Below are positions 11,301-29,567 of a stretch of 29,990 nt of DNA, in pieces. Under the pieces are notes generated by a model, which did not search any database, had not been told where the DNA came from, and was given only the letters and a program-made list of their open reading frames with translations. Source of the stretch: Deltaproteobacteria bacterium RIFCSPHIGHO2_02_FULL_40_28 (GTDB lineage: Bacteria > UBA10199 > 2-12-FULL-40-28). A program made the position numbers and the translations under genes. The stretch's first letter is position 1. Every line of letters begins with the position of its first letter. Location: positions 1-29,990 of the forward strand of contig MGRJ01000007.1 of the NCBI GenBank assembly GCA_001798135.1. Direction: 5' to 3'.

Positions 11301-11574
11301 TATCAGTGATTTAAAGGAAGCCATTGTTCATGGAGCCGTGATGCGTGTTCGTCCTAAAATGATGACCGTATGCGCTGCTTTTATGGGGCTTCTTCCCATT
11401 TTATGGTCCATGGGCACAGGTTCTGATTTGATGAAAAGAATAGCAGCTCCAATGATTGGAGGGCTTTTAACTTCCTTCTTATTGGAATTATTGGTGTACC
11501 CAGTGATTTACCTTCATCTTAAAGAAAGAGAATTAAATAAGCTTGCGCTTAATCACTCTTCCAACAAAACGTAG
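8305..11574 (+). CDS. Heavy-metal efflux RND pump (CusA/CzcA type)
   Basis: The inner-membrane, proton-driven pump of the exporter. It has the HME-RND landmarks: ALPDLSDTQVIIYS near the N-terminus, GVLVDGAIVEVENI in TM4 with the proton-relay Asp, and GSEFMPPLNEGSILYMPTTLPG at the pore entry. It also has the RIDMLATGIRTPIGIKVLG signature, GLDAETGIFMLL with the relay Glu, and RVRPKMMT with the relay Lys. The Met residues in EFMPP, ILYMP and RIDMLATG fit monovalent Cu/Ag transport, though the exact Met triad needs an alignment. Three ATG codons lie in a row; ATG at 8305 is chosen because AAGGA (8293-8297) is at proper distance from it and too close to 8299. The length (1089 residues) is slightly longer than typical. 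Its end overlaps the convergent ThDP gene by 42 bases. Confidence 0.95.
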   Translation: MEKIIEFSARNKGLILLCFGFLLGFALWSVKNIPLDALPDLSDTQVIIYSRWEKSPDIIEDQVTYPIISSLLGAPKVKTIRGFSDFGFSYVYVIFEDGTDLYWARSRVIEYLSKINSSLPEGVKTEIGPDATSIGWVYQYALVDSSSKNNIADLKSLQDFLLRYQLQSVPGVAEVASIGGHTKQYQVNLNPDALASLNIPLMNVAEAIKKSNNDTGGRLIELSGKEYMVRSHGYFTSTEDIENIVIGNNPKSGDPILIKQVATVEIGPDIRRGIGDLDGLGDTVSGIVIMRHGENALDVIKRVKARLEDLKKSLPQGVEIIPVYDRSDLILRAIDTLKRTLIDEMVIVSLVIILFLWHIPSAITAAFTIPISVLLAFIPLYFLGISSNLMTLAGIAISIGVLVDGAIVEVENIYHKTQVWIAGGKKGDITSIRIKAMQEVGPAAFFSLLVVGVSFIPIFTLVDQEGRLFKPLAYSKNLAMLIAAVLALTFNPAMRMLFSRVEPFHFQWPKLNRLLNVTLVGRYYEETKHPISRVLFKFYEPICRWALNHKKKTIGFALGLLLSTIPVFFMLGSEFMPPLNEGSILYMPTTLPGISITEAERMLQIQDRILKTFPEVERVYGKAGRANTSTDPAPFSMVETLVVLKPEDQWRKVNRWYSWMPEIFQAYYRHLWNDRITWEELINEMNEKMQIPGWTNAWTMPIKNRIDMLATGIRTPIGIKVLGDNPKTIESIGMELEKLLTPLKGSRGIFAERTAGGYFVDFNLNRSALARYGLTIEDANSIIATALGGENLTITIEGRKRFPVNLRYARSFRDDLTALNRILVSLPAGGQIPINSIADIHLTTGASMIRDENGQLSGYVYVDIAGRDIGGYVKEAKKIVSQQLTLPQGYVLQWSGQYENMVRVKERLKFILPLTLFIIFMLLYFNTKSFEKAGLVMLAVPFSLIGAIWFLFLLDYNLSIAVWVGMIALMGLDAETGIFMLLFLDLSYKEFKENGKLNTISDLKEAIVHGAVMRVRPKMMTVCAAFMGLLPILWSMGTGSDLMKRIAAPMIGGLLTSFLLELLVYPVIYLHLKERELNKLALNHSSNKT

Positions 11575-13248
11575 TCGATCTTTCCAAGGTAGGCGTAAAA
11601 AATTAACTTTGATAGCACCCTTAGTAAAATACGTTGGGAAAGAATAATCAATCATCACTTCAACCAAAACAGGATATTTTTCACTGATTTTTTTTACTTC
11701 GATCAATACACTTTCGATATCGGAATCTTTTTGAATTAAAAAATAAGGAATCCCAATAGACTCTGCAAAGGCCTTGTAATTAAGACCAGCCAGGGTTGTG
11801 CAGGTTTTACTACCTAAAGTTTTCTTTTGAAATTGAGCAATTTGTGAAAGTTCACCATCGTTTAAAATACAAGTAATCACTCCTAGATCATAAGTTTTAG
11901 CTGTAACAAGTTCTAACCCCGTCATTAAAAAAGCACCATCACCAGCCAGAGTCACCACGGACTTTGAAGGATTAGCAAGCTTAGCACCAATACCCGCGGG
12001 CACGCTATAACCCATGCAAGAGTAATCAATGGGGCCTAAAAAAGATCGGGGATGTTTTAATCGCAATTGTTCCATAGCTAAAAAAGTTCCATTTCCTGAA
12101 TCGGTGACATAAATGGCATTTTCATCCATGATTTTTTGGCAAGTTTCAAAAAATCGAGACGGAGAAATACGAGAAGATGACTGATGAGATTTTTGTTCTT
12201 CCCTTATTTTCTTATGGGCTAAAGCTAACCCAGATAAAAAAGATTTATCTTCAGTTCTCTTTTTTAAATCACTAGCCAATAAAGCTTTGATAGCCACAGA
12301 AGAATGCGCTTTTAATGTTATAAGCGCTGGGAAGTTTTTATTAAAAACTTTTTCATTACAATCAATATGAATAAGCGTTGGCGATTTTACTCCATAACTA
12401 GCAGTAGCCACTTCTCCAAAACGGCATCCAATCGCTAATAAACAATCAAGGGATGAAAAAATTTTCTGAATCTCGGGAGGAGCCCCCATGCCAATAACAT
12501 TCCATCCCCAACGAGGATGATTTTCAGGAAACACTCCCTTTCCTGAAATGGTGGTAAAAACAACAGCATCTAATTTTTCTGCCAAACACACTAAATCATC
12601 AGCTACATCTCCTGTACTAAAACCAGCATAAATCCCAATACGACTGGACTGGTTGAGTTGATCTTTAATTTTAGTCAGGATGTTTTCGTCTATAAATCCC
12701 CCCTCCCTCGAGGGGAGGGGGGATGGGGGGAGGGTGGTGATGTCACTTGGAAAAAGATACAAATTAGCGGGAACCTCCACAAACACAGGGCCTTGAGGAG
12801 GCATCTTTGCTATGTGGCAAGCCTTACGAATAACAGAATAAATTTCTTCATGCTTTTTAATGGAAAAAACTTCCTTACAAATGGGACGTGCAATTTCTAT
12901 TTGTGCAATATCGTGTAACTGAAAAGATTGAGAAATGTCATTTCGAAGTCCACAAGCTAAAACTAAAAGAGGAATTCCATCAAGATAAGCCTCTGTAATC
13001 CCAGAAGCAGCATGAGTTAAACCCGCACCTGGCACTATGTTAACTACAGCCATTTTTCCAGACGATCTGGCATAACCATCGGCCATAAAAGAAGCCGATT
13101 GTTCATCAGTAACCAGGTAAGGAGACACATTACTTCCATCTAAGACATCATAAAGTTCAATATTGTGCGTTCCGGGAATACCCAAGGTGGCTGTAATGCC
13201 TTCGTCTTGGAGAGCCTTTAATACCAATTGTCCGCCTGAAAGTTTCAT
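11533..13248 (-). CDS. Thiamine-diphosphate-dependent enzyme, acetolactate synthase-like
   Basis: A 571-residue member of the ThDP decarboxylase/ligase family. The N-terminal PYR domain has GIPGTHNIEL and the activating Glu49 in VTDEQSASFMADGYAR. The C-terminal PP domain has the ThDP motif GDGAFLMTG followed 20 or so residues later by ND. Between the PYR and central domains, residues about 171-185 (TTLPPSPLPSREGGF) are encoded by an interspersed GC-rich repeat inserted in frame, so the enzyme probably tolerates it in a linker. The substrate is unknown: acetolactate synthase, 2-hydroxyacyl lyase and 2-oxoacid decarboxylase are all possible, and it lacks an adjacent small regulatory subunit. 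It is the last gene of a three-gene operon, overlapping the GMC gene by four bases (ATGA), so a product shared with an alcohol or hydroxyacid oxidation is plausible. Confidence 0.85.
   Translation of the reverse strand: MKLSGGQLVLKALQDEGITATLGIPGTHNIELYDVLDGSNVSPYLVTDEQSASFMADGYARSSGKMAVVNIVPGAGLTHAASGITEAYLDGIPLLVLACGLRNDISQSFQLHDIAQIEIARPICKEVFSIKKHEEIYSVIRKACHIAKMPPQGPVFVEVPANLYLFPSDITTLPPSPLPSREGGFIDENILTKIKDQLNQSSRIGIYAGFSTGDVADDLVCLAEKLDAVVFTTISGKGVFPENHPRWGWNVIGMGAPPEIQKIFSSLDCLLAIGCRFGEVATASYGVKSPTLIHIDCNEKVFNKNFPALITLKAHSSVAIKALLASDLKKRTEDKSFLSGLALAHKKIREEQKSHQSSSRISPSRFFETCQKIMDENAIYVTDSGNGTFLAMEQLRLKHPRSFLGPIDYSCMGYSVPAGIGAKLANPSKSVVTLAGDGAFLMTGLELVTAKTYDLGVITCILNDGELSQIAQFQKKTLGSKTCTTLAGLNYKAFAESIGIPYFLIQKDSDIESVLIEVKKISEKYPVLVEVMIDYSFPTYFTKGAIKVNFLRLPWKDRLRFVGRVIKRKLI
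12698..12740. repeat. GC-rich palindromic interspersed repeat, copy 2, inside the ThDP gene
   Basis: C-runs at 12698-12709 pair with G-runs at 12710-12722 around a CTCGAG core with one bulged G, followed by ATGGGGGGAGGGTGGTGAT. Read on the minus strand this matches the copy at 27-67: ATCACC, two C-rich blocks, then the hairpin. It is the opposite orientation and lies in an open reading frame, where it encodes about 15 residues without a stop or frameshift. Confidence 0.75.
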
Positions 13249-16270: not shown

Positions 16271-16780
16271 ATGATGAAACATCTCATTCCACACGAAAGA
16301 ATTGAAAATCGTATTTATCTTCTGCGTGGTCAAAAAGTTATGTTAAGCCTTCATTTGGCAGAACTGTATGAGGTTGAACCACGAGCATTAGTTCAAGCTG
16401 TGAAAAGAAACATGGAACGCTTTCCAGACGATTTTATGTTTCAACTTACCAATGAAGAAACAATAAACTTGAAATCACAAATTGTGATTTCAAGTTGGGG
16501 CGGTTCACGCCGTGCCAATCCCTATGCTTTTACGGAACAGGGGATAGCAATGCTTTCCGCTGTACTTAAAAGCCCCCGTGCAATTAATGTAAGTATTGAA
16601 ATAATAAGAACTTTTGTGAAGTTACGACAGCTTTTAACTTCAAATAAAGAATTAGGTAAAAAATTGGCTCTGTTAGAGAAAAAATATGATCACCAATTTA
16701 AAGTGGTGTTTGATGCTATTCGACAAATAATGGATCAACCTATTTCAAAAAATCGAAAAATTGAGTTTCTTAATAGCTAA
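16271..16780 (+). CDS. ORF6N domain-containing DNA-binding protein
   Basis: The N-terminal 120 residues match the ORF6N domain: [46 protein letters not shown], then [31 protein letters not shown] and a helical end ([17 protein letters not shown]). The last 45 residues are a coiled-coil-like helix ([30 protein letters not shown]). ORF6N is related to KilA-N domains of phages and large DNA viruses and also occurs in many bacterial chromosomes as a lone gene; its role (phage antirepressor-like or DNA binding) is not settled. The start has a good GGAGG site. A perfect 31-bp palindrome lies inside the gene at codons 66-76. The isolated context next to a decayed AT-rich region fits mobile origin. 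Confidence 0.88.
16466..16496. repeat. Perfect 31-bp palindrome within the ORF6N coding sequence
   Basis: Arms AACTTGAAATCACAA (16466-16480) and TTGTGATTTCAAGTT (16482-16496) are exact complements around a single A. The element starts exactly at codon 66 and encodes [10 protein letters not shown] plus the first base of Trp, part of the family's conserved L-x-SQ-x-x-x-S-x-GG segment. It could form a cruciform or an mRNA hairpin, or be a binding site for the protein itself. Confidence 0.95.
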
Positions 16781-28014: not shown

Positions 28015-28068
28015 ATTGAGCCATATTGAGCCAGATTAGTCAATAAAAATGTCTCAATATGGCTCAAT
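28015..28068. promoter_or_regulatory. 16-bp inverted repeat at the Fic promoter
   Basis: ATTGAGCCATATTGAG at 28015-28030 is exactly complementary to CTCAATATGGCTCAAT at 28053-28068, with a 22-base spacer. TTGAGCCA also repeats directly at 28016-28023 and 28026-28033, and TGGCTCAA at 28060-28067 is its inverse. The spacer contains a TTGAC -35-like hexamer on the minus strand (TTGACT). A protein bound to both arms would cover the Fic promoter; the winged helix of Fic itself is the obvious candidate. Confidence 0.6.
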
Positions 28069-28082
28069 ATGTGTAGTCTCAA

Positions 28083-29427: not shown

Positions 29428-29439
29428 GAGGGACTTTAA

Positions 29440-29504
29440 TAGCCCGATCGGGCCAATGATGTCATCATATTTTTAGCCCGATCGGGCTTTGTCCTATCGG
29501 GCTA
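29440..29504. promoter_or_regulatory. Triple GCCCGATCGGGC palindrome upstream of the methyltransferase
   Basis: Perfect 12-bp palindromes GCCCGATCGGGC occur at 29442-29453 and 29476-29487 (34 bases apart, three helical turns) and a partial third copy TATCGGGCTA at 29495-29504. They lie 15-75 bases before the methyltransferase ATG. Equal helical-phase spacing suits cooperative binding of a repressor. The second copy is also followed by TTTG and could end short transcripts. Confidence 0.65.
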
Positions 29505-29567
29505 TATTCAAGACACTGGTCTCAAAAGGTATATTCCGGGCACATGGTTTACACTTTATGGCATGAT

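Follow-up and report, generated by a model that had tools for sequence, protein, structure and literature searches.

An ORF6N gene of a deltaproteobacterium carries within its own coding sequence a perfect palindrome which, judging from sequence comparison, is probably a double-stranded DNA binding site for the protein encoded by the same gene and would act as a cis-regulatory operator. The palindrome is conserved as DNA across the family, and its bases coevolve with residues of a predicted recognition helix in the protein.

The palindrome of the window gene

The window, the whole 29,990-nt stretch of DNA that was analysed, contains an ORF6N gene whose product scores 114 bits against the PF10543 domain profile (curated cut-off 27.8). 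The original prediction of a perfect 31-bp palindrome inside this gene, starting on a codon boundary and covering codons 66–76, was confirmed. The palindrome AACTTGAAATCACAA-A-TTGTGATTTCAAGTT has 15-nt arms that are 100% complementary and a 1-nt spacer (15-1-15); its first base, 16466, opens codon 66, as its centre, 16481, opens codon 71. By simple arithmetic (~30,000 x 4^-15), a perfect 15-bp arm at one spacing is expected about 3e-5 times in the window. The site as defined by the family is shorter than 31 bp, being paired at positions k=2–13 counted from the centre, and spans 27 bp. No upstream copy of the site was found for the window gene, which has the in-gene site only. The source genome contains two further ORF6N genes and, in addition, a short ORF6N fragment (L005) with a palindrome of its own. 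Coordinates of the features are collected in the table.

Table. Features of the window ORF6N gene, and pRha and KilA-N genes with internal palindromes
Feature	Position	Strand	Remarks
ORF6N gene, 169 aa	16271–16780	+	Pfam PF10543, E 3.9e-33 (profile search); AF2 model pLDDT 79.6
Perfect 31-bp palindrome	16466–16496	.	15-nt arms
Predicted 27-bp self-recognition site	16468–16494	.	Family-wide pairing k=2–13, drop at k=14, free centre
12-bp half-sites	16468–16479 and 16483–16494
3-bp centre	16480–16482
Predicted recognition helix, codons 37–46	16379–16408	+	AF2 model helix; coevolution
Codon of R38	16382–16384	+	Associated with base k7 (16474, 16488)
Codon of Q42	16394–16396	+	Associated with k4 (16477, 16485) and k5
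Low-confidence loop, codons 72–84, after helix 61–71	16484–16522	+	Holds the 3′ half of the site
pRha genes with strong even-centred palindromes			L532, L534, L537, L538, L541, L552, L554, L559
KilA-N genes with strong even-centred palindromes			L562, L563, L566, L568, L572, L573, L581, L586

In the AF2 model of the window protein pLDDT is about 54 across residues 71–80. At the codon 72–84 loop relatives show in-frame length variation and extra palindromes; going by the model, this region is a permissive place for the site.

Other inverted repeats were noted elsewhere in the window. A palindromic stretch at 12696–12724, ATCCCCCCTCCC ... GGGAGGGGGGAT (peptide TLPPSPLPSREGGF), lies in frame in a thiamine-pyrophosphate-enzyme-like gene (11533–13248) and resembles an inserted palindromic coding repeat. 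Two intergenic clusters of nested inverted repeats are present, at 28015–28071 and 29432–29505 (ATTGAGCCATATTGAGCCA / TGTCTCAATATGGCTCAAT, and repeated AGCCCGATCGGGC).

Conservation of the palindrome as DNA

Sources of ORF6N loci were genome contigs, viral contigs, Bacteroidota and the phyla of the window and of NaphS2; from these a sample of 243 nonredundant full-length genes from many phyla was assembled. A stem with at least 9 of the 12 pairs at k=2–13 was found at the expected place in 236/243 genes; a control stretch of equal length in the same genes reached this level in 20/243. The arms vary among genes yet covary. In one orthologous pair (L222/L228) with surroundings 83% identical, three paired positions changed together.

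The LxSQ peptide is common among the products read in frame A, and a palindrome could follow from a conserved peptide. We used a null in which amino acids were held and synonymous codons redrawn. In frame A (157 genes) 11.3 of 12 pairs were observed compared to 5.2 expected; in frame B (36 genes), where the same DNA is read one base over, the values were 10.9 and 6.8. Synonymous bases covary with partner codons: the Ser codon is TCA opposite a Val codon in 107/109 cases and TCG opposite an Ala codon in 38/39, while the choice between Leu codons TTG and TTA tracks the second base of the partner codon in 110/111. The frame A peptide, L-R/K-S-Q-I/F-V/A-T-S/L (e.g. LRSQIVTS), is unrelated to that of frame B, E-V-V-T/A-N/I-C-D-H-L (e.g. 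EVVTNCDHL), and copies of the site are also present in non-coding DNA upstream of genes. Since the arms covary beyond the codon null and occur in two reading frames, it is the DNA and not the peptide that is conserved, as had been proposed for the window gene. Synonymous changes that freely break the arms, named in advance as the outcome fatal to that proposal, were looked for and the opposite was found. Constraint on the peptide only is refuted by the codon null and the two frames, and we regard the probability of such an explanation as negligible.

Some ORF6N genes contain two or three such palindromes in frame. Tandem arrangements with linkers were seen in L074, L077, L080, L065, L069, L081 and L085, of which the orthologues L077 and L085 differ in palindrome number.

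Evidence for a duplex DNA element

A 12-bp stem with a 3-nt unpaired centre would also be compatible with an mRNA hairpin governing translation or decay, and a translation-controlling hairpin was among the functions suggested in the original prediction. This suggestion was not borne out. An RNA hairpin should tolerate G-U mismatches over A-C ones, but on the mRNA strand mismatches show no preference for G-U, with 48 of this type and 52 of the A-C type. As the central triplet, AAT and its complement ATT are each frequent, without strand preference. Together with the coevolution of helix and site described below, this makes an mRNA hairpin extremely improbable.

The central three bases are free of pairing constraint. 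Non-coding upstream copies of the site pair from k=2 to k=13, and at k=14 pairing is at chance (12/43 vs 11.5 expected). Because the mismatches do not favour G-U and neither strand is preferred, and because pairing ends at k=14, we take the site to be a duplex element of 27 bp whose central 3 bp are unconstrained. Dyad symmetry in double-stranded DNA without strand preference is what an autoregulatory operator would have, and the ORF6N site shows it.

A proposed recognition code linking helix and site

Mutual information was calculated between bases of the palindrome and columns of the protein, minus the columns encoded by the palindrome. It picked out window residues 38, 39, 42 and 43, the median column being close to 0. 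Residues R38, A39, V41, Q42 and A43, all of which belong to helix 37–46 of the AF2 model, coevolve with the palindrome.

The associations take the form of a simple code. Position k4 is A when residue 42 is Gln (99/102 in frame A, 22/22 in frame B), G when it is Glu (40/41 and 13/13) and C when it is Arg or Lys (38/40 in frame A, two exceptions in frame B); K42 is also associated with T at k5 (12/12). Position k7 is G with K38 (101/102 in frame A, 26/27 in frame B) and A with R38 (51/61 and 5/6). The window gene fits this code, having R38 with A at k7 (16474) and Q42 with A at k4 (16477). Among 233 in-gene sites, k4 obeys the code in 223 and k7 in 212, with shuffled expectations of 97 and 119, respectively. 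The code is compatible with Gln-Ade, Glu-Cyt and Arg/Lys-Gua contacts. It is identical in both frames, where the encoded peptides are unrelated, and therefore does not reflect a contact within the protein.

To obtain independent pairs of genes, a tree was built without the helix and site columns. Of the pairs with different residues at 42, 58/60 also differed at k4, 56 of them exactly as predicted; of the pairs sharing residue 42, 4/77 did. Likewise, k7 changed in 48/59 pairs differing at residue 38 compared to 10/80 pairs sharing it. The code was also applied to out-of-sample genes from Pseudomonadota, Patescibacteria and named plasmids, one gene seen twice being counted once; k4 was predicted correctly in 32/35 and k7 in 31/35. 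Coevolution, the tree control and prediction in new genes all point to a site whose sequence is set by the gene's own protein. We strongly infer from these sequence relationships that the ORF6N protein binds the palindrome of its own gene, and the self-binding site envisaged in the original prediction thereby receives strong support from the coevolution of helix and palindrome.

The outer arms, k9–k13, are nearly always paired, and no protein column predicts them. Their symmetry could come from a second contact region or from template-switch correction of palindromes. Arm complementarity might be kept altogether by template-switch correction of quasi-palindromes or by cruciforms, with no specific protein involved. 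Covariation of k9–k13 without a coupled residue is consistent with this, as is the left-right identity within sites (0.88–0.94), which is higher than the identity between upstream and in-gene copies (0.68). However, such a process leaves unexplained the base-residue coevolution at k4–k8, the fixed location of the site and its substitution at promoters. As the whole explanation it is very unlikely, though it may contribute to the symmetry of the outer arms.

Upstream copies and distribution of the site

The normal in-gene stem is absent from 7/243 genes. L033, L132, L110, L011 and L115 have an upstream palindrome instead, which in each case matches the gene's own helix at k4 and k7. The same match is seen for the upstream site of L142, a gene with a spurious in-gene stem that lacks the core. 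In L127 the site is displaced, and among the 243 genes only L182 has none at all. Substitute sites in genes lacking the in-gene site lie ~25–65 bp 5′ of the start codon. Because the site is obligatory and yet can leave the ORF for the promoter, it looks like a cis-regulatory operator.

Upstream copies as a whole cluster 19–30 and 40–70 bp before the start codon and peak 50–100 bp before the domain start (33 vs ~3–5 per 50 bp elsewhere). Promoter-near placement is seen in ~15% of genes and in those without an in-gene site. When all upstream sites were compared with the helix of their own gene, k4 matched in 26/46 (18.8 expected) and k7 in 28/46 (22.4 expected). Where both sites are present, many upstream copies mismatch the gene's own helix and the match is only somewhat above chance. 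By this comparison upstream sites are a mixture of self-matching and non-matching ones; the latter could be sites for paralogues, or sites in decay. To test for locus-specific recognition, half-sites of upstream and in-gene copies were compared for identity; variable positions carried no signal overall (P 0.23). The structural-hairpin view that this null result had suggested gave way to the helix code.

When 46 genomes of the phylum were searched for a core pattern, sites appeared in 22, all with ORF6N; sites were present in 22/32 ORF6N-bearing genomes and in 0/14 genomes without ORF6N. Most of them are located within or just 5′ of ORF6N genes, and several others in ORF6N remnants. In ten strongly diverged ORF6N genes (L504–L513) no clear site of this type was found, and our claim is therefore restricted to the main ORF6N group. 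In viral contigs (L311–L430) the core GGTCRCAAWTTGYGACC gave at least 120 matches, compared to 8 and 42 for two control palindromes. Nearly all of these are intergenic stems, many flanked by T-tracts and most of them terminator-like and beside phage genes, and an ORF6N gene was present in only 1/80 matches examined. We treated the viral GGTCRCAAWTTGYGACC stems as a matter separate from the ORF6N site.

Possible mobility and repeat insertion

ORF6N genes look mobile from sequence alignment. In four aligned pairs from distant genomes homology begins ~100–150 bp before the start codon and ends within ~25 bp of the stop codon. If the genes are mobile, having the operator inside would leave each unit self-contained.

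Cassette-like pairs are L018/L046, L245/L248, L015/L025 and L127/L130. Short ORF6N fragments with an intact palindrome were observed at L005:183-254, L213:988-1065, L217:1058-1153, and near 974 in L215 and 1049 in L212. Such fragments are often ~70–96 bp long and cover profile positions ~40–68; two lie just upstream of other genes.

Self-binding could be real but serve mobility or exclusion (marking, protecting, recruiting recombination, or silencing incoming copies of the same type) and not ordinary autoregulation. The homology limits and the palindrome-bearing fragments scattered in genomes are in line with this, and paralogues in the same genome share site type slightly less than expected (13 vs 19.5, P 0.053). 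On the other hand, substitute sites stand at promoter or 5′-UTR distance, and searches with Pfam profiles revealed no nuclease or recombinase domain in the window protein. We consider a mobility or exclusion role unlikely. An integration or recombination target, another function originally suggested, found no direct support, though the genes look mobile. Inverted arms of ~12–13 bp are a feature shared with attachment sites of tyrosine recombinases, but the ORF6N site has no directional crossover region at its centre, and its recognition follows the ORF6N protein.

The nearest published phenomenon is that of palindromic coding elements: the Rickettsia and Wolbachia palindromic elements (RPE, WPE) and PARCELs are repeats spread in other genes (PMC2996958). 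Like them, the ORF6N palindrome is translated and horizontally dispersed. Unlike them, it belongs to one gene family, has a defined length of 27 bp and is tied to the gene's own DNA-reading helix, and no spread of an ORF6N repeat into unrelated genes was seen. The occurrence of two frames and the extra in-frame copies of some genes would be accounted for by an RPE- or PARCEL-like mobile repeat inserting in ORF6N genes. Yet the sites keep largely to ORF6N genes, the DNA upstream of these and ORF6N remnants; neither occurrence in several unrelated genes nor tandem 25-residue repeats were found, with few exceptions outside ORF6N loci. Given also the coevolution with the helix, insertion of a mobile repeat is exceedingly unlikely.

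Proposed mechanism

Our preferred reading remains that of an operator bound by the product of the gene in which it lies. A probable homodimer, the ORF6N protein would read each half-site with its second helix (residues 38–43), R38 reading position 7 from the centre and A39, Q42 and A43 reading positions 4–5. In most genes the operator would be embedded in the part of the ORF that encodes a floppy loop, ~210 bp past the start codon; genes that have lost it there would have an equivalent operator upstream, at the distance of the substitute sites. The likeliest effect would be negative autoregulation by road-block, looping or promoter occlusion. We infer regulation by the in-gene site from its position; if the role is regulatory, repression is in our judgement the likely sign of the effect. 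A place ~210 bp inside the ORF is unusual for repression. The internal operator may keep a horizontally mobile gene a self-contained regulated unit, and portability would be its advantage.

Structural comparison gave weak matches with DNA-binding folds, namely MerR-type HTH (RacA, BmrR), Mbp1/PCG2 and Dachshund (Z <6.5); a MerR-type or APSES/KilA-N winged-helix match has Z 2–4.7, which is below the level separating chance arrangements. The predicted ORF6N fold may weakly resemble KilA-N/APSES (Mbp1) and MerR-type domains, including the presumed recognition helix. Unlike for these domains, a PDB sequence search with ORF6N gave no solved relative of credible score, and its role is predicted.

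Like autoregulatory operators of homodimeric HTH repressors, the ORF6N site is palindromic double-stranded DNA with a helix-base code and, in some genes, promoter-proximal copies. In contrast to such operators, 97% of genes have it within the stretch that codes for the DNA-binding domain; it is read in two frames, and it turns up upstream where the in-gene copy has been lost. No description of the ORF6N site was found in the open-access literature. Autoregulation is already known; a family-wide operator within the coding sequence of the domain that reads it, with a coevolving code, appears to be new.

pRha and KilA-N genes and implications

In the same genomes, even-centred in-gene palindromes with at least 11/13 pairs were found in 8/18 Phage_pRha and 9/15 KilA-N genes, compared to 0.9% (pRha) and 4% (KilA-N) of codon-shuffled controls reaching 11/13 pairs. 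Examples are GAACGTCGGCGCAAAATTGCGCCGACGAAA in L552 (pRha) and TTTAATTCCATCGAATTCGATGGAATTAAA in L568 (KilA-N). These palindromes occupy similar places in the coding sequence and occur in several reading frames. It is possible, though we lean against it, that the phage and mobile regulators of the KilA-N/ORF6N/pRha group are in general self-addressed, each having its target inside the gene's own coding sequence, with site and helix coevolving as an identity-like code travelling with the gene.

ORF6N genes are widespread in bacteria and phages. Their proteins, which are common, often present in several copies and spread horizontally, have had no known function. They now have a predicted target, predicted reading residues and a quantitative code, with which ORF6N function becomes testable. 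Where the coding sequence of the DNA-binding domain itself contains the operator, kept across two frames, autoregulation would move along with the gene. The more than 200 natural protein-site pairs constitute a helix-base specificity series for work on protein-DNA recognition. The internal palindromes of pRha and KilA-N genes suggest a wider principle in phage regulators; if the self-addressed design is true, site and helix would diversify as an immunity- or identity-like code.
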